Source: Woeseiaceae bacterium
GTDB taxonomy: Bacteria; Pseudomonadota; Gammaproteobacteria; Steroidobacterales; Woeseiaceae
Assembly: GCA_021773075.1 (NCBI GenBank)
Contig: JAJFKT010000010.1
Span: 310,001 to 374,000, forward strand
Length of the DNA: 64,000 bases
Reading direction: 5' to 3'
Within the stretch, counting starts at the first letter, position 1, and each line of letters begins with the position of its first letter. A program made the position numbers and the translations under genes. Positions 40,346 through 47,226 of the stretch are shown here, in pieces. The notes under the pieces were generated by a model that ran no database searches, was not told where the DNA came from, and saw only the letters and a list, made by a program, of their open reading frames with translations.

Positions 40346-41179
40346 TCAAGGCATGAAACGCGAGAGTGCTATTGACCCAGCCGCGAAAAACCGTTTCCTG
40401 GTAAGCCAGATGAGGCCGAGGAGGGTGAAAATCCCGGTGCTTCCCCCACCACCACCGCCACCGCCACCGCCAGTGTTGGGAACCGGTACGGTCGGGGTGG
40501 CGGTTGTTGGCGTTGGATTCAGTCCAGCGGCGGAATCAACTGTTGAATCGATTACGCTTATCCCGGTAACGATATTGAGGTGTGAATTGTTGATCGGAAC
40601 CTGGTTTGCAAAGTCGGTTGCAGTAAAGTTTCGCAGGGGCAATTCATCAAGAGGGGGCGCGAAACCGAACTTTGGCAAGGCCGCGAGCGCATCAACAACG
40701 TCCATACCGTTACCAGTAACCTCGCCGAATGCGGTGAAGCCACCATTTTGACTATCGAGATTCCCGGCGTTGTTGGATAAGTTAATAAACCACTGGCTGG
40801 TAGCGCTGTTTTCATTGCCGCCTTGCTTGGCCATTGCGATTGTACCGCGGACATTGGAGTAAATAGGCTCGTTCGTGACTGCAGGATTGGTCGGAATGCT
40901 TGTGATCTGAGCGTTAAGGTCGGTCTGAAAACCACCACTTTGAACGATGAAGTTTGACACTGAGCGGTGAAAAATCGAATCTGTGTATGCGCCATTCTCA
41001 ACATAGTCCAGGAAATTGGCAACGGTGGCCGGTGTGGTGTTGTCGTACAGATTTATCTCGAAATCACCAACGACGGTTTCGACAATCACAACAGTGGCAT
41101 TTGCTGTCCTGGAAAAGGAAGTCGCAAAGAAAAGCACCAGGATCGTCGCAATGACGATCGAATTTGAACGAATGGACAT
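40346..41179 (-). CDS. Exported cyclophilin with GlyGly-CTERM-like tail
   Basis: A 277-residue protein. Signal peptide 1-28, then a cyclophilin peptidyl-prolyl isomerase domain (about 30-195): FHRSVSNFIVQSGGF, GTIAMAKQGGNENSATSQWF and FTAFGEVTGNGMDVVDAL. A Pro/Thr-rich linker (PTPTTATPTVPVPNT) leads to ten consecutive glycines, STG, a hydrophobic helix and RKR, the tripartite GlyGly-CTERM sorting signal cleaved by rhombosortase in gammaproteobacteria (family knowledge). About 13 residues follow the basic cluster, longer than usual. Divergent from the ECF sigma operon. Confidence 0.85.
   Translation of the reverse strand: MSIRSNSIVIATILVLFFATSFSRTANATVVIVETVVGDFEINLYDNTTPATVANFLDYVENGAYTDSIFHRSVSNFIVQSGGFQTDLNAQITSIPTNPAVTNEPIYSNVRGTIAMAKQGGNENSATSQWFINLSNNAGNLDSQNGGFTAFGEVTGNGMDVVDALAALPKFGFAPPLDELPLRNFTATDFANQVPINNSHLNIVTGISVIDSTVDSAAGLNPTPTTATPTVPVPNTGGGGGGGGGGSTGIFTLLGLIWLTRKRFFAAGSIALSRFMP
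40444..40472. repeat. Triplet repeat encoding a polyglycine run
   Basis: Alternating CCA/CCG triplets on the plus strand, which code for ten glycines on the minus strand in the cyclophilin tail. Slippage here would change linker length in frame. Confidence 0.85.
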
Positions 41180-41289: not shown

Positions 41290-41850
41290 ATGCGGGATAG
41301 CGACTCACGTAGCGATATGGAGCTGATTAGCCTGTGCAATTCCGGAAGCCGGAGCGAGGCGTCTGCGGCTTTTAGCAGCCTATACGCCCGACACAAGGAC
41401 TATGTCCTTAGAGTCGCATTTCGTTATGTAGGCAACGCGGATCTCGCACTGGACGTATTGCAGGAAACATTTTCCTATTTGCTTCGGAAGTTCCCCCCAC
41501 CTGGCGCGGGGCTCGTGCTGACAGCCCAATTGAGAACGCTGTTGTACAGCGCTGCGAAAAGCACGGCGCTGAGCATATTGCGTAATAAGAACGTCACTAC
41601 GAGAGACGAGAACATCGAGCCCGATGAACTACGGAGCCCGGAGGATGGCCAGTCGGAACTCCCACAGCTCTTATCTGGCTTGGCGCCCAATGAACGGGAG
41701 GTCATAATTCTCAGATTCGTCGATGATCTCTCCCTTGCCGAAATCGCAGAGACCCTCGAGATACCGCTGGGTACCGCAAAGTCACGCCTGCATAAGGCGG
41801 TCATGGCGCTCCGTAACTCCCGGTATATACAGGAGTTTTTCGATAAATGA
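41290..41850 (+). CDS. ECF sigma factor, system 1
   Basis: A 186-residue RNA polymerase ECF sigma factor. Region 2 is YARHKDYVLRVAFRYVGNAD with LDVLQETFSYLLRK; region 4 is LAPNEREVIILRFVDDLSLA followed by IAETLEIPLGTAKSRLHKAV, a helix-turn-helix. First gene of a tightly coupled operon through 46205. The next gene product has a single membrane helix and is the likely anti-sigma factor (inference). Target promoters cannot be named. Confidence 0.92.
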   Translation: MRDSDSRSDMELISLCNSGSRSEASAAFSSLYARHKDYVLRVAFRYVGNADLALDVLQETFSYLLRKFPPPGAGLVLTAQLRTLLYSAAKSTALSILRNKNVTTRDENIEPDELRSPEDGQSELPQLLSGLAPNEREVIILRFVDDLSLAEIAETLEIPLGTAKSRLHKAVMALRNSRYIQEFFDK

Positions 41851-41893
41851 ACCTTTTGGGGGCTTGCTGCGCTTAATACTTAAGGAGCGCAGA

Positions 41894-42283
41894 ATGACGA
41901 ATCAGCAAAAACCCGATTTCGATTTGCCCGACGGCCTTGTCGATCGACTAAAGCAGGCTGATCAGGCACCAGCGGTGATTACCGCCAAGGTAGACCGGGC
42001 CGTATCGGCTATGACGAGCGAGCAGTTCTCGACACGTCCGGGCCGGCGTATCAGTGCGCCTGTGTGGCTCTCTGCGGCTGCGTCAGTGGCGCTCGCCGTA
42101 TTTATCGTTCAAATGCAGGCGCCGGCCCCCAGTGAGGGCGTTCTTTACTCGGACGTTGACGGATCCGGGCAAATCGATATCGCCGATGTCATGGCGATGG
42201 CCATGCGTGAACAGGACGATGTGAGCGCAGCGGAACTCGAGGCCTTCGCAATGCAGGTGGTTGCACTCGGCGATACGTCATGA
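41894..42283 (+). CDS. Membrane protein with periplasmic dockerin-type repeat, putative anti-sigma
   Basis: A 129-residue protein: a short cytoplasmic part (1-53), one membrane helix (about 54-75), and a periplasmic tail with the calcium loop DVDGSGQIDIAD at 87-98. Asp87, Asp89, Ser91, Asp95 and Asp98 match the dockerin/F-hand pattern, followed by the usual VMAMA helix. Only one loop is present; full dockerins have two. Position after an ECF sigma suggests an anti-sigma factor whose sensor is the dockerin-like part (inference). ATG 41894 follows TAAGGAG. Coupled to the next gene by ATGA. Confidence 0.75.
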   Translation: MTNQQKPDFDLPDGLVDRLKQADQAPAVITAKVDRAVSAMTSEQFSTRPGRRISAPVWLSAAASVALAVFIVQMQAPAPSEGVLYSDVDGSGQIDIADVMAMAMREQDDVSAAELEAFAMQVVALGDTS

Positions 42284-42726
42284 ACGCTCTTCGGGTCCTG
42301 GTCATTCTAGCGTTGGTATTTTTCGCTTCCACGGCGGCTGCCGAGCCCCGCTTCGTCGCTGTCGACGTTTATGTCATTAGCGACAAGCCACTCGCTGCGT
42401 GGCAGTTCAGTTTCGAGGGCGGTAATGCCGGTTTAAAAGTCGTCGGGATTGAGAACGGTGATGCTGCCGTATTTGAAGATGCGCCGTATTACGACAGGCA
42501 AGCCGTTGCAGCAGGCACAGCGGATCGCGTTGTTGTCGCCGACTACTCGCTCGCTGACGTCGCGACTCTGCCGATCGGACGGGTGCGTGTCGCGACACTG
42601 CACCTGATGTTGAACGGTGATGAGCCGCCCGATTTTGATGCGCATTTGGCCGTCGCAGCAACCTACGGCGGGAAACACATTGAAGCGAAAATTAGTCTTG
42701 AGATTTCCTCAGGGAGTGAGCAATGA
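42280..42726 (+). CDS. Exported cohesin-like beta-sandwich protein
   Basis: A 148-residue protein with signal peptide (1-20, ending AAAEP). The mature part reads like a cohesin-type domain: VAVDVYVISDKPLAAWQFSF, GLKVVGIENGDAAVF, VVVADYS and LPIGRVRVATLHLML, i.e. beta strands in the order expected for proteins that bind dockerins. No membrane anchor, so it should be free in the periplasm. The match is by pattern only and moderate. Overlaps both neighbours by 4 nt. Confidence 0.65.
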   Translation: MNALRVLVILALVFFASTAAAEPRFVAVDVYVISDKPLAAWQFSFEGGNAGLKVVGIENGDAAVFEDAPYYDRQAVAAGTADRVVVADYSLADVATLPIGRVRVATLHLMLNGDEPPDFDAHLAVAATYGGKHIEAKISLEISSGSEQ

Positions 42727-44969
42727 ATTACAGGAATTTACAGGCTTGGGCAGTTCTGCTGGTCAGCGCACTAATCACCATCGGTTGCGCGTCCACGAGC
42801 TTATACGCGCCACAGGAGGTCGCGACGCAGTCGGAGCCTGAGAATCTTCCGCCATCACGATCTTCTGATGACGGCGGGTTTGAGGAAGTTGTGGTAGCCG
42901 GTAATCGGCGGAACGAGCGCGGACGGAGTGACCAAGAACGCATGCAATCTACTAGATCTGCGACGACTCCGTCATTACCTAGCGCAGAAGCGATCGGCAT
43001 TACCGGATATGTCAATAATAGTGCTCTACAGGCTGGAGCAGATGGCATCGATGCATTTCTCGCGAAGGTGGGTGACGAGGAGCTTTGGATAATTTCGAAA
43101 GCTGACGTCGCGGATCCTGCTACAAACAATGACGAGCCAGGCACCGGCGCCATGATGGCGACCTTCGAGCAAAAGGAAGTGCCACTGCCACTCAAGCATA
43201 CGGATGTATCGGCACGCATTGCTGGCTACATCAGTACAGTCAATGTACGGCAGCAGTTCGAGAATCCCTACGACAGCAAGATCGAAGCGGTTTACATGTT
43301 CCCGTTGCCCGAAAAAGCGGCGATATCCGAATTCCTGATGATAATCGGTGAGCGCAAGATTCGCGGCATTCTTCGCGAAAAGGAAGAGGCAAAACAAATA
43401 TACGAGGCAGCACGTTCGCAGGGTTATCAGGCAAGCCTGCTCGTACAACATCGACCGAATATTTTCGAACAGAAAGTCGCGAATATCGAGCCTGGAAAAT
43501 CGATCAATGTCGACATCAAGTACTTCCATACGCTGGCCTACAACGATGGCTGGTATTCATTCATATTCCCGACGGTGGTTGGACCGCGCTACAACCCACC
43601 ACATTCCACAGACCCGATCAGCGCGTTGCCGCGAACGGACTCATCGTCGGTGACCGGCGTTCGCTATCTCAAGCCAACAGAACGCTCGGGACACGACATC
43701 AGTATCGAGGTCAGTGTTGATGCAGGCGTCAAGATTGAAGAATTACGCTCGACACACAAGATTATTGCCGAACGTACTGACTCAAATCAGGCATCCGTTT
43801 CGCTGGCGGCCGAGGCGACGCTTCCAAATCGCGATTTCATTTTGGATTTTCGCGTCGCGGGCGAAACAATGAAATCGAATCTGCTGACCTACGTTGACCC
43901 TGAGACGCAACAGGGCTACTTCACTATGATGTTATATCCGCCCGAGGCAACCGATGTCATTGCGCGCCGAAAGATGGAGATGGTCTTTGTTATCGACTCG
44001 TCCGGATCGATGAGCGGTACACCAATGGCGCAAGCCAAAGATGCAGTTGAGTCCGCCCTCGATAATCTGCAAGAAGGTGATACGTTCCAGATCATTCGAT
44101 TCTCCGACAATGCAAGCCAATTCGGCCGCGATCCGGTTCCTGCGACCAGGGACAATATTGTGCGAGCCAAACGCTACCTGGCCAACCTGCACGGCGGTGG
44201 GGGCACTCGAATGATTGAAGGCATTCGGGCCGCTCTGAATTTTCCGCACGATCCATCGCGATTTCGATTTGTTTCCTTCTTAACGGACGGCTACATCGGC
44301 AATGAAGTCGAAATACTCGCGGAGATTCATCAACACATCGGCGCGGCAAGAATCTTTAGTTTTGGCGTTGGCAGTTCAGTCAACAGGTACTTAATGGAAA
44401 GTATGGCCAAGGTCGGGAAGGGTGCGGTTGCCTATCTCGGGCCGCAGGATTCCGGCTCTGAGATCATGTCCGACTTCTTTCGTCGCATTAGTCATCCGGC
44501 CCTCACTGATGTTCAGATTGACTGGGGTGGTATGGCGGTCAGTGATGTCTATCCCTCAACCTTGCCCGATCTGTTCGTCGGCAGGCCACTGGTGGTGACC
44601 GGATTATTTACAGGAGCGCCAAGCTCTATCGCAGTGCTCGGGCACGGCAGCGAAGGCGAACGTCGTCAGGCGATCAAGAGCGACTCGGGTTCAGAAGGCG
44701 CATCATCGCTCGCGAAAATATGGGCGAGATTGCGGGTCGAAGATCTTGACCACCGGCGGAGCATCGGTGGCGACCCGGACGGCGAATTTGCGACGGCCAT
44801 TCGAGAGACGGCGCTGCGCTATCAGTTGATGTCAGAATATACGTCGTTCGTTGCGGTCGACAGCTCTAAACGCACGGCGGGCGATCATGGCACGACCGTC
44901 CATCAAGCGGTGCCAGTACCCGCCGGTGTCAAATACGAAACTACGATTGGCCAGGAGGGCTCGCAATGA
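42723..44969 (+). CDS. VIT and VWA domain lipoprotein
   Basis: A 748-residue predicted lipoprotein (lipobox ITIGC, Cys22). A low-complexity segment includes FEEVVVAGNRRN, similar to the TonB-box signature of TonB-dependent receptors. A VIT domain follows (about 155-290; VNVRQQFENPYDSKIEAVYM, PLPEKAAI), then a VWA domain (about 415-590) with an intact MIDAS motif DSSGSMSG and a downstream FLTDGYIGNE. The C-terminal third is unassigned. VIT-VWA proteins resemble inter-alpha-trypsin inhibitor heavy chains and bind proteins through a metal ion (family knowledge). Coupled to both neighbours by ATGA. Confidence 0.87.
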   Translation: MNYRNLQAWAVLLVSALITIGCASTSLYAPQEVATQSEPENLPPSRSSDDGGFEEVVVAGNRRNERGRSDQERMQSTRSATTPSLPSAEAIGITGYVNNSALQAGADGIDAFLAKVGDEELWIISKADVADPATNNDEPGTGAMMATFEQKEVPLPLKHTDVSARIAGYISTVNVRQQFENPYDSKIEAVYMFPLPEKAAISEFLMIIGERKIRGILREKEEAKQIYEAARSQGYQASLLVQHRPNIFEQKVANIEPGKSINVDIKYFHTLAYNDGWYSFIFPTVVGPRYNPPHSTDPISALPRTDSSSVTGVRYLKPTERSGHDISIEVSVDAGVKIEELRSTHKIIAERTDSNQASVSLAAEATLPNRDFILDFRVAGETMKSNLLTYVDPETQQGYFTMMLYPPEATDVIARRKMEMVFVIDSSGSMSGTPMAQAKDAVESALDNLQEGDTFQIIRFSDNASQFGRDPVPATRDNIVRAKRYLANLHGGGGTRMIEGIRAALNFPHDPSRFRFVSFLTDGYIGNEVEILAEIHQHIGAARIFSFGVGSSVNRYLMESMAKVGKGAVAYLGPQDSGSEIMSDFFRRISHPALTDVQIDWGGMAVSDVYPSTLPDLFVGRPLVVTGLFTGAPSSIAVLGHGSEGERRQAIKSDSGSEGASSLAKIWARLRVEDLDHRRSIGGDPDGEFATAIRETALRYQLMSEYTSFVAVDSSKRTAGDHGTTVHQAVPVPAGVKYETTIGQEGSQ

Positions 44970-45766
44970 TCACACAGAGACTTCAGGTTTGCCTTTCAAT
45001 AATGGGTCTACTCGTCGCAGGCGGCTGCGCACAACACTACGTTACGCCGGGTGCTGCGCTTGAACTGACTGAGATCACAGACAAGGATCTGCAGCACTAT
45101 TTCCAGCGCCAGCCGGCAGCGTCATTCCCGGCCAGTATCGCCGTGGTTCGGGTACAGGACTCGGGCTACTACCACCGGGGAAATCGCGATCGTGGTCGTT
45201 ATGCCATTGTCAGTACACGCGATCTCGAATCGGATGAAGCCTACGAAAAAATACAGAAGTTGACGCACGTCCGCGGCGTCGCGCCAATTGGCCGAATGTT
45301 GGTTCCCGCCAATGCCAACGGGATCAAAGAGCTTCGTGTTGGAGCAGCCCAGCTTCAGGCTGATATGGTCCTTGTTTATTCAGTTGATACTTCGTTCGCG
45401 GTGGATGGTAAACAATACGGACCACTCAGTGCGATATCGCTGGGCTTGCTCAAGAACAGGAATGCACATGTCACTGCGACGGTCGCTGGTTTGTTGGTAG
45501 ATGTTAGAACCGGATTCATATACGGCAGTGCCGAGGCTTCAAGTTCGCAAGAAAAGAAAACGTCAATCTGGGCATCGCGGCTTGCGATCGACACTGCACG
45601 CATCGCAGCGGAACAAGTCGCATTTGATGAGTTTGTGGACGAGTTCGGAGATCTTTGGAACGGCGTTATCCAAACGCATACGAGAACAGCCCTTGTGAAT
45701 CCCGCGCAATCCAGTGCAAACTCACCGACCGGCCGGAGCTACCACACGGTTACCTTTGAGGATTGA
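44966..45766 (+). CDS. Hypothetical lipoprotein of the ECF operon
   Basis: A 266-residue lipoprotein (VAGGC lipobox, Cys21). The mature part has strand-rich blocks such as SFPASIAVVRVQDSGY, QADMVLVYSVDTSF and VAGLLVDVRTGFIYGSAEAS, which resemble lipoproteins of the GNA1162/rhombotarget-lipoprotein type (weak, by pattern). Since a GlyGly-CTERM-like protein lies next to this operon, that resemblance is worth checking. Function unknown. Confidence 0.72.
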   Translation: MITQRLQVCLSIMGLLVAGGCAQHYVTPGAALELTEITDKDLQHYFQRQPAASFPASIAVVRVQDSGYYHRGNRDRGRYAIVSTRDLESDEAYEKIQKLTHVRGVAPIGRMLVPANANGIKELRVGAAQLQADMVLVYSVDTSFAVDGKQYGPLSAISLGLLKNRNAHVTATVAGLLVDVRTGFIYGSAEASSSQEKKTSIWASRLAIDTARIAAEQVAFDEFVDEFGDLWNGVIQTHTRTALVNPAQSSANSPTGRSYHTVTFED

Positions 45767-45770
45767 CATC

Positions 45771-46205
45771 ATGAACGAGAAGGCTGCGAATGCCATACAT
45801 TGGAGTTTTTGGGCGATTGCAGTGTTTGCGCTTGTCTGGAACGTTCTGGGTAGCGTTAATTACATGATGCAGACGAATCTGGACATGGTGGCGTCATTAC
45901 CTGATACGCATCGTGCGATTATCGAAGGTAGACCAGCCTGGGCAACTGGCGGGTTTGCGATATCCGTTTTCATTGGTGCGCTCGGCGGCTTACTGCTTCT
46001 ACTTCGAAAGCCCGTTGCCTTTTATCTGTTTGTCGCATCCTTGCTCGGAACAGCCATCACAGTCATCCACACCATTGACGTTGCCAACTCGGTGATCAGG
46101 TTCAGCGTTGCCGAGATAGCGATAATGATCTTATCGCCCGTCGTCGTCGCAGCGTTTATGGTTTGGTATTCGAGACGTGCGCAAAGCATCGGATGGACCC
46201 GCTAG
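45771..46205 (+). CDS. Four-helix membrane protein
   Basis: A 144-residue protein with membrane segments at about 10-27, 60-79, 85-104 and 115-135. An extracytoplasmic loop with DTHRAIIEGRPAWATG lies between helices 1 and 2, typical of small DUF membrane proteins described as sugar transporter-like in annotation; I would not assign transport. ATG 45771 is 4 nt after the lipoprotein stop, so it closes the ECF operon. Confidence 0.72.
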   Translation: MNEKAANAIHWSFWAIAVFALVWNVLGSVNYMMQTNLDMVASLPDTHRAIIEGRPAWATGGFAISVFIGALGGLLLLLRKPVAFYLFVASLLGTAITVIHTIDVANSVIRFSVAEIAIMILSPVVVAAFMVWYSRRAQSIGWTR

Positions 46206-46208
46206 TTT

Positions 46209-46520
46209 CTAAGACTCACGTGCGTCGAGGATCGCTTTGATCAGGTCCTCTGGTACATCCTCCGGGATTGATGCGCCCGATTCTGACATAACAGCTTCGG
46301 CAATTTCCATTGTCCGGCGATAGGCCGCCAGGTACTCGCGGCACTCTCGGCAAAGTCCCAAATGCCACTCAAAGATCGACCGTTGTTTGGCGGGCAACTC
46401 ATCTTCCAGATAGCTGATCAGGAAGTCTTCGAATTCCTTACAAGTGATCATGTGACGCATGCGCTTGAGAAAATAGCCTTTAAGTCGACGCCGAAAACCA
46501 CCGGGACGTGCTGCATTCAT
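46209..46520 (-). CDS. Zinc-binding anti-sigma factor, system 2
   Basis: A 103-residue soluble protein. MITCKEFEDFLISYLEDELP then FEWHLGLCRECREYL gives the HxxxCxxC zinc-finger anti-sigma (zf-HC2/ZAS) pattern. No membrane helix, so it is a cytoplasmic sensor-type anti-sigma. It overlaps the ECF sigma gene by 4 nt, which supports pairing. The N terminus is basic (RPGGFRRRLKGYFLKRMRH). Confidence 0.88.
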   Translation of the reverse strand: MNAARPGGFRRRLKGYFLKRMRHMITCKEFEDFLISYLEDELPAKQRSIFEWHLGLCRECREYLAAYRRTMEIAEAVMSESGASIPEDVPEDLIKAILDARES

Positions 46521-47116
46521 AGTTTGGCACCTCCACGAAGAATGGGTTCAATCAATTTCTTAAGTGCAGCTCGTGCTCGATGTAACCTCACTTTTACATT
46601 CGCTTCGGTAATATCGAGAGTCTTAGCGACTTCCCGGGTGTCATACCCTTCGACGTCTCGAAGCAGCAAAAGGATACGGTATGTGTCAGGCAGCGTATCA
46701 ATACAATCATGCAAGAGCTCTCTGGTCTCTTCATTTTCAACAACTTCAGCAACTTCCGGAAGCCGCGACCAGGGCATCTCGATGCGACAGTCATACAGAT
46801 CGAATTCCGGCTGCAGGTCGTCAACCGACTTCTCAGCTTGCCGTTTGATCTGTCGAATTTTGTCCAGCGCAGTGTTGACGGTAATTCGATGCAACCAGGT
46901 TTTGTGGCTGGATCGTCCCTCAAATTTGGCGAGGCCGCGAAAAGCCGCCATAAATGAATCCTGCACGACATCTTCAGCATATCCGCGATCTCGTAACAGT
47001 CGCTCGGCCAACGCGAGCATCCAGCCGATATTGTCACGGACCATAGCCTCCACATCGGCCTCGTTAGCGGGATCGCCGGGCGTGAAGTCTCTGGATTTTG
47101 GATCGTCGTTGGACAT
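46517..47116 (-). CDS. ECF sigma factor, system 2
   Basis: A 199-residue ECF sigma factor of RpoE-like type: region 2 ALAERLLRDRGYAEDVVQDS with FMAAFRGLAKFEGRSSHKTW, region 4 LPDTYRILLLLRDVEGYDTR followed by EVAKTLDITEANVKVRLHRA. ATG 47116 (SNDDPKSRDF) is chosen; a TTG at 47221 would add a cysteine-containing, unconserved stretch. Paired with the zinc anti-sigma downstream. Divergent from the 47303-49598 genes, which may be its targets (inference). Confidence 0.92.
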   Translation of the reverse strand: MSNDDPKSRDFTPGDPANEADVEAMVRDNIGWMLALAERLLRDRGYAEDVVQDSFMAAFRGLAKFEGRSSHKTWLHRITVNTALDKIRQIKRQAEKSVDDLQPEFDLYDCRIEMPWSRLPEVAEVVENEETRELLHDCIDTLPDTYRILLLLRDVEGYDTREVAKTLDITEANVKVRLHRARAALKKLIEPILRGGAKL

Positions 47117-47212
47117 CGGGCCGTCATCATTCAACAAAAAGCAAATTGGGCAGAAACAGTTAGCGTCGAAAGGAGTGCTAACGAATGCAGTTCTTCGTAT
47201 TCTGGCACCGAG

Positions 47213-47226
47213 TGTAACCAATTACA
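47213..47226. promoter_or_regulatory. Short inverted repeat in divergent ECF promoter region
   Basis: TGTAA-CCAA-TTACA, 5-bp perfect arms, between the divergent ECF sigma (47116) and the 47303 gene. Possible operator; short enough to be chance. Confidence 0.3.

Follow-up and report, generated by a model that had tools for sequence, protein, structure and literature searches.

We analysed a window of 64,000 nucleotides (nt) from a Woeseiaceae bacterium (GenBank assembly GCA_021773075.1, contig JAJFKT010000010.1, positions 310,001 to 374,000; "the window" means this whole stretch, and positions are counted within it). On its + strand is an operon that begins with genes for an extracytoplasmic function (ECF) sigma factor, a presumed anti-sigma factor with a dockerin-type tail, a secreted protein with a cohesin fold, and a lipoprotein with VIT and VWA domains. 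We propose that these four genes, with a second lipoprotein as an optional component, probably encode a transmembrane signalling module, in which the dockerin anti-sigma factor would be gated by the periplasmic cohesin and the VIT-VWA lipoprotein. In proteobacteria, the lipoprotein would also be engaged by TonB.

Six genes lie in a row within 41290-46205 (open reading frame coordinates, + strand). Gene 1 (41290-41850, 186 amino acids) encodes the sigma factor, gene 2 (41894-42283, 129 amino acids) encodes the presumed anti-sigma factor, gene 3 (42280-42726, 148 amino acids) encodes the cohesin-fold protein, and gene 4 (42723-44969, 748 amino acids) encodes the VIT-VWA lipoprotein, whose lipobox cysteine is Cys22. 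A preliminary description, made from these letters alone, had stated that 4-nt overlaps join most of the genes. Such overlaps (ATGA) are indeed present at three of the five junctions, but the other two are gaps, of 43 nt between genes 1 and 2 and of 4 nt between genes 5 and 6. Only genes 1 and 4 have Pfam matches above the cut-offs (genes 2, 3, 5, and 6 have no family), and these matches bear out the ECF sigma factor and the VIT-VWA protein that had been claimed. Gene 1 matches Sigma70_r4 (8.8e-16), Sigma70_r4_2 (5.5e-15), and Sigma70_r2 (1.9e-6), so it is a short protein with regions 2 and 4, as expected of an ECF sigma factor. Gene 4 matches VIT (4.6e-35) and VWA_3 (7.3e-18).

The preliminary description had treated these genes as a unit that should be found together elsewhere, and the four-gene core does recur across several phyla. 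We found related loci through the cohesin gene, so co-occurrence was measured from that side only. The sigma factor, the tail protein, the cohesin, and the VWA protein are encoded on one strand and in this order at 50 of 65 loci: 31 of 35 in proteobacteria, 4 of 4 in a Binatia group (which includes one "Deltaproteobacteria" locus), and 15 of 26 in planctomycetes. (At L054, which is counted as having this order, a TonB gene lies between the sigma and tail genes.) Nine of the 15 exceptions are at contig ends. In three others (L068, L163, and L174), the sigma gene is upstream on the other strand; L165 and L172 have all four genes, but over-long open reading frames interfere with the order there; and at L161 we found no sigma gene. 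A 4-nt overlap joins the tail gene to the cohesin gene at 39 of 42 loci, and the cohesin gene to the VWA gene at 25 of 41 (a start codon giving a 4-nt overlap was preferred where one existed). A set of 44 loci includes Woeseiaceae, other Gammaproteobacteria, unspecified Proteobacteria, Candidatus Binatia, one "Deltaproteobacteria", and planctomycetes. Within these groups, the distribution is patchy. A search with gene 3 alone matched 7 of 60 genomes, and 2 of 369 genomes of the class (the window's own genome is included in both counts). A 43-row cohesin profile had matches in 19 of 396 genomes of the order, own genome included, and in 22 of 392 genomes of the phylum around one planctomycete, with that central genome included. 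We also looked for a common sigma promoter in 39 upstream stretches, but the counts of dyads gave nothing promoter-like: the dyads that rose above shuffled sequences mostly hold ATG and resemble start regions.

Gene 3 has a signal peptide without a lipobox (by inspection), and the predicted structure gives well-supported evidence that it has the cohesin jelly-roll fold. The AlphaFold2 model has a predicted local distance difference test (pLDDT) score of 86.4. When we compared the model to the Protein Data Bank (PDB) with Foldseek, the 22 top matches were all cohesins or cohesin-bearing scaffoldins, with 1ohz_A as the best (E = 4.3e-4, TM 0.54). Similarly, VIA-align lists cohesins or cohesin-bearing scaffoldins for 47 of its 50 entries, with Z up to 9.6 and 117 residues aligned at 3.0 Å. 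The cohesin-like secreted protein of the preliminary description is right in kind, although Pfam gives gene 3 no family: the cohesin family PF00963 does not match gene 3, seven relatives, or four planctomycete members, and a profile of gene 3 finds no PDB cohesin by sequence. We considered a link to phages as well, but viral contigs scanned with the gene 3 protein gave 25 pattern matches and no relative.

Gene 2 has the layout of a small anti-sigma factor. It adjoins the sigma gene, and its product has a short cytoplasmic N-terminal part that is predicted to be helical, a single transmembrane helix (residues 58-75, 42065-42118, + strand; hydrophobic by inspection), and a dockerin-type C-terminal tail. 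The AlphaFold2 model has helices at residues 15-23, 31-46, 58-75 (the transmembrane helix), 96-106, and 112-126, all at low confidence. Several observations weigh against reading gene 2 as an anti-sigma factor. The model is poor (predicted template modelling score, pTM, of 0.26), too poor for a fold search. Gene 2 has no match to an anti-sigma family in Pfam or NCBIfam. Among 42 homologues of gene 2, anti-sigma families give only weak matches: CnrY at E = 0.054 at best, in two members, and NrsF at E = 0.0083 in a few. The role is presumed from gene position and topology. (In genome G035, at L024 5087-6333, a different membrane protein is encoded next to an ECF-like sigma gene, and it has 59% identity over 32 residues to the transmembrane region of gene 2.)

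If gene 2 is not an anti-sigma factor, then the genes might be a structural operon for adhesion or surface assembly that is merely regulated by the ECF sigma factor, with the small membrane protein as an assembly anchor. Two points would fit: domains of the cohesin, dockerin, and VWA kinds are characteristic of proteins for adhesion and assembly, and the N-terminal part of gene 2 lacks a convincing match to an anti-sigma family. However, the membrane protein gene adjoins the sigma gene at the large majority of loci, and cytoplasmic helices followed by one transmembrane segment, as in the low-confidence model, are a minimal anti-sigma layout. Furthermore, the cohesin profile finds a single place in nearly every genome that has one, unlike the repeated cohesins of scaffoldins. 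We consider an assembly operon to be improbable.

The dockerin-type tail of gene 2, which the preliminary description had also reported, is right in kind, but its relatives were needed to show this. In the window, the tail has one canonical EF-hand loop (DVDGSGQIDIAD, residues 87-98, 42152-42187, + strand), which corresponds to the first dockerin repeat, followed by a helix and no second loop. Its EF-hand score in Pfam is below threshold (E = 0.037), and there is no Pfam match to Dockerin_1, so it is not a type I dockerin with two repeats. Against PDB sequences, a profile of gene 2 ranks a centrin (E = 0.01) above dockerin chains, whose matches are weak (0.046 to 0.73) and mixed with those of unrelated chains. 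In contrast to the window's protein, the planctomycete homologues have tails in which two loops can be read directly, and three of the four that we scanned singly exceed the Dockerin_1 cut-off of 22.9 bits (31.2, 33.0, and 24.6 bits). Dockerin_1 gives some signal (E ≤ 1) for 21 of the 42 homologues.

By a strict regular expression, the 24 planctomycete tails include 12 with two loops, 10 with one loop, and two with none. All four Binatia-group tails have one loop, as do 33 of the 35 proteobacterial tails, including the window's; the other two (L034 and L065) have none. Among the first eight members that we aligned, six have an intact loop, L019 (the same contig as L034) has an altered one, and L023 has none. 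The simplest reading of these sequences is that the proteobacterial line lost the second loop, rather than that its tails resemble dockerins by chance. Nevertheless, the proteobacterial tails count against our proposal: they lack the second loop, and in L034 (= L019), L065, and L023 the first loop is altered or lost and the module is retained. Because loops are altered or lost while the module stays, calcium-dependent docking cannot be universal.

We also considered that the sigma factor and the anti-sigma factor might form a switch, but with the cohesin instead serving the VWA lipoprotein, by binding a ligand or as a scaffold, and with the EF loop as no more than a calcium sensor or a structural remnant. 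This would account for the persistence of the cohesin gene where the tails have no second loop and, in some lineages, an altered or missing first one. It would also fit with the proteobacterial tail tracking the cohesin no better than it tracks other parts. We reached the latter observation by correlating evolutionary distances between the parts of the module across 52 rows, controlling for the distances of the VWA domain; the coefficients that follow come without a significance test. Across all 52 rows, the N-terminal part of the anti-sigma factor correlates best with the sigma factor (0.46) and the tail correlates best with the cohesin (0.40). The same pairs are best in planctomycetes (0.32 and 0.23, respectively). 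In proteobacteria, the pattern runs counter to the proposed contacts: the N-terminal part correlates best with the VIT domain (0.57, versus 0.37 with the sigma factor), and the tail correlates better with the VIT domain (0.41) than with the cohesin (0.33). These distances support the pairings weakly at most. However, cohesins are the classical binding partners of dockerins, and in planctomycetes, adjacent genes pair a two-repeat dockerin with a cohesin. Also, the window's genome has no other Pfam match to a dockerin or a cohesin, with the caveat that both models (Dockerin_1 and Cohesin) miss the window's own pair as well. Overall, a cohesin that does not bind the tail seems unlikely to us, and we prefer the proposal that the two proteins dock.

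The VIT-VWA lipoprotein is predicted to be anchored in the outer membrane. By the Lol rule of proteobacteria, a lipobox without aspartate at position +2 points to the outer membrane, and we make the prediction because none of the 54 lipoboxes that we found has aspartate there. (Seven VWA proteins have no lipobox.) The DxSxS metal-site motif is present in 54 of 57 VWA proteins: 28 of 30 from proteobacteria, 4 of 4 from the Binatia group, and 22 of 23 from planctomycetes. The closest named family of gene 4 is TIGR03788, the marine proteobacterial sortase target proteins, which also combine VIT and VWA. Gene 4 aligns to this model with E = 2.3e-148, but its 495.5 bits are below the cut-off of 551.65. 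Gene 4 also differs in being a lipoprotein, and the window's genome has a separate VIT-VWA paralogue (L025 6372-9006, G000 contig C23) that adjoins a sortase-like gene (by inspection). The motif that we describe next is absent from this paralogue and from the genome's other VIT-VWA paralogue.

Between the lipid anchor and the VIT domain, these proteins have a linker that is divergent except for two short motifs. The first is ELWVI-like and is kept across phyla: the pattern [EDQ][LIV]W[IVYF][IV] is found in 53 of 57 members (30 of 30 from proteobacteria, 4 of 4 from the Binatia group, and 19 of 23 from planctomycetes). In gene 4 it reads EELWII (residues 119-124, 43077-43094, + strand). The second motif is found in the proteobacterial members and resembles a TonB box. 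In gene 4 it is FEEVVVAGNRR (residues 53-63, 42879-42911, + strand). To score it, we used a matrix from the TonB boxes of the window's own genome: 30 receptor loci were fetched from 49 plug matches, and three of these were dropped as they had no match to the regular expression, which left 27. The window's motif scores 22.4, versus 14.8 for the best of 1000 shuffles. With 1000 shuffles for each linker (two linkers, L063 and L071, were lost), 23 of 32 proteobacterial linkers have the motif at p < 0.01 and 28 of 32 at p < 0.05. The corresponding counts are 0 of 4 and 1 of 4 for the Binatia group, and 0 of 4 and 0 of 4 for planctomycetes.

The resemblance extends beyond the box in some proteobacteria. 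We built a profile of the receptor N-terminus, with the box and the start of the plug, and 18 of 32 proteobacterial linkers exceed 8.0 bits, which was the best score among 2850 shuffles. The top scores are from L043 (41.9 bits), L055 (38.2), L044 (33.1), L038 (33.1), and L039 (23.5); the window's linker scores 11.0. In five proteobacterial members the box continues into plug-like sequence (E down to 2e-13). None of the 25 planctomycete or Binatia-group linkers scores above 0 bits. Within the window's genome, the strict pattern EE(V/I)(V/I)VT(G/A) occurs at 14 sites, of which 13 are beside a receptor plug, versus none for the reversed control; the odd site is in a secreted protein without a plug. 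A wider pattern has 10 sites (one in the control): eight beside a plug, the window's lipoprotein, and one small secreted protein.

Some of the results argue against a role for TonB. Pfam's Plug model matches none of the seven linkers that we scanned, and it has no match in the window's protein, so what gene 4 shares with the N-terminus of a TonB-dependent receptor is the box, as a sequence motif only, and not a plug above the cut-off. Four members (L046, L047, L049, and L051) lack the box at p < 0.05, L047 despite its adjoining TonB gene. The window's genome also encodes two secreted proteins that have the box but are not receptors. We saw the motif just after the signal peptide of a 233-amino-acid secreted protein (L189 2822-3523, - strand, G000 contig C2), and in an internal stretch of a secreted protein that is SIMPL-like by inspection (L188, - strand, G000 contig C4 near 134.3 kb).

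It is quite possible, then, that the TonB-box-like stretch is unrelated to TonB, and is a linker motif for another periplasmic factor or a functionless relic of a fusion. (This alternative concerns only the TonB part of our proposal.) Like motifs in two non-receptor proteins would fit with this, as would the motif's absence or degeneration in some proteobacterial members and our failure to find it in the linkers of the other phyla. On the other hand, 13 of the 14 strict sites being next to a plug, with none in the control, counts against this alternative. The box is also kept at two different places in the divergent linker: in the Woeseiaceae members it comes ahead of the ELWVI motif, and in the group related to L036-L044 it comes after. 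The plug-like extension in five members and the TonB genes that adjoin or enter related operons also favor a link to TonB.

TonB_C proteins are encoded at 9 of the 44 loci. At seven of these loci, the TonB_C gene is found upstream at a distance of 2 to 5 kb, and a gene on the opposite strand intervenes. At L047 (4226-4900), it is directly upstream of the sigma gene, and at L054 (1079-1702), it is between the sigma and anti-sigma genes. Pfam confirmed six TonB_C proteins from five loci, plus the protein from L054. A caution is that seven of the nine cases share one neighbourhood, which leaves about three independent cases. At L032, a gene for a TonB receptor barrel is divergent and upstream. 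Genes for the ferrous iron transporter FeoB are divergent from the sigma gene at L053 (2366-4573, - strand) and L070 (2223-4427, - strand), and we noticed the same protein end at this position in L064. The neighbours point towards TonB and perhaps towards iron.

Our proposal for how the module works is as follows. The small single-pass anti-sigma factor, with a cytoplasmic part of about 55 residues and an extracytoplasmic dockerin or its reduced remnant, would hold the ECF sigma factor. The soluble exported cohesin would dock on the tail of the anti-sigma factor. The VIT-VWA lipoprotein may be the sensor or ligand-binding part, and it would capture or release the cohesin. This would alter the stability of the anti-sigma factor, and the sigma factor would be freed. 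In proteobacteria, the lipoprotein has gained, at the level of sequence, a TonB-receptor-like N-terminal stretch. TonB probably grips it there, which would couple the switch to the energised envelope or to the supply of TonB. The module would work like signalling of the FecI/FecR type, except that the VIT-VWA lipoprotein would stand in for the receptor barrel and the cohesin-dockerin contact for the STN contact. We speculate, more tentatively still, that it is a TonB-powered sigma switch without a receptor barrel: pulling by TonB might make or break the cohesin-dockerin bond, and the cell might sense force, the supply of TonB, or a ligand at the metal site of the VWA domain. This version is somewhat doubtful.

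The remaining genes of the row differ in their support. Gene 5 (44966-45766, + strand) encodes the second lipoprotein, of 266 amino acids. It has no Pfam family of note and no sequence match in the PDB at E ≤ 1, but it follows the core at 9 of the 44 loci, so we include it as optional. Gene 6 (45771-46205 from the first ATG, + strand; there is an earlier in-frame GTG at 45714) encodes a membrane protein, and we rejected it as a component of the module. It has no BLAST match at E ≤ 1e-3 in 73 related loci. (These are the 44 loci and another set of 29; at least seven of the 29 repeat loci among the 44, and many contigs end near the operon.) The sole relative that we saw, with 32% identity, is in L024 and is away from any module. 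Nothing ties gene 6 to the module. So the six-gene operon of the preliminary description holds for five genes, and the membrane protein that it listed as the sixth component is unsupported. Directly downstream and convergent with the operon are a second ECF sigma factor and a zinc-finger (zf-HC2) anti-sigma gene (46209-47221, - strand). The divergent gene upstream (40346-41179, - strand) resembles a cyclophilin-type isomerase with a glycine-rich C-terminal tail (by inspection).

Of the systems that have been described, the FecI/FecR type (such as FoxI/FoxR/FoxA, PMC11637429) is similar in having an ECF sigma factor, a membrane anti-sigma factor that contacts an outer-membrane-linked partner through its periplasmic part, and the involvement of TonB. 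The window's operon differs from this type in lacking a receptor barrel (Pfam finds no TonB receptor among the six genes), in having a separate cohesin and a VIT-VWA lipoprotein as the partner, and in having an anti-sigma factor with a dockerin at its end. In cellulolytic clostridia, SigI/RsgI (PMC6056542) is also an alternative sigma factor with a membrane anti-sigma factor; the latter has a sensory module outside the cytoplasm, and the organisms have cohesins and dockerins. But SigI is described as lacking a sigma4 domain, unlike the window's sigma factor with its clear match to Sigma70_r4, and in the window the presumed anti-sigma factor has a dockerin of its own. The "planctosome" that was proposed for freshwater planctomycetes (PMC6461901) also involves non-cellulosomal cohesins and dockerins; in the part of that article available to us, it is proposed for peptide degradation, and no sigma or anti-sigma factor is tied to it. 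In the titles and the beginnings of abstracts that our literature search covered, which left the ECF re-classification and the survey of non-cellulosomal cohesins outside, there was no dockerin anti-sigma factor and no cohesin beside an ECF sigma factor.

Three findings go beyond the preliminary description: the TonB-box-like motif, the presence of TonB genes in the neighbourhoods of related operons, and the fact that planctomycetes have complete dockerins. Cohesins and dockerins are best known as parts for the assembly of cellulosomes. If our proposal is correct, then a cohesin-dockerin pair also serves to pass on a signal, and this would suggest a candidate function for some of the stray planctomycete cohesins and dockerins. 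A TonB box on a lipoprotein would also widen the range of presumed targets of TonB.

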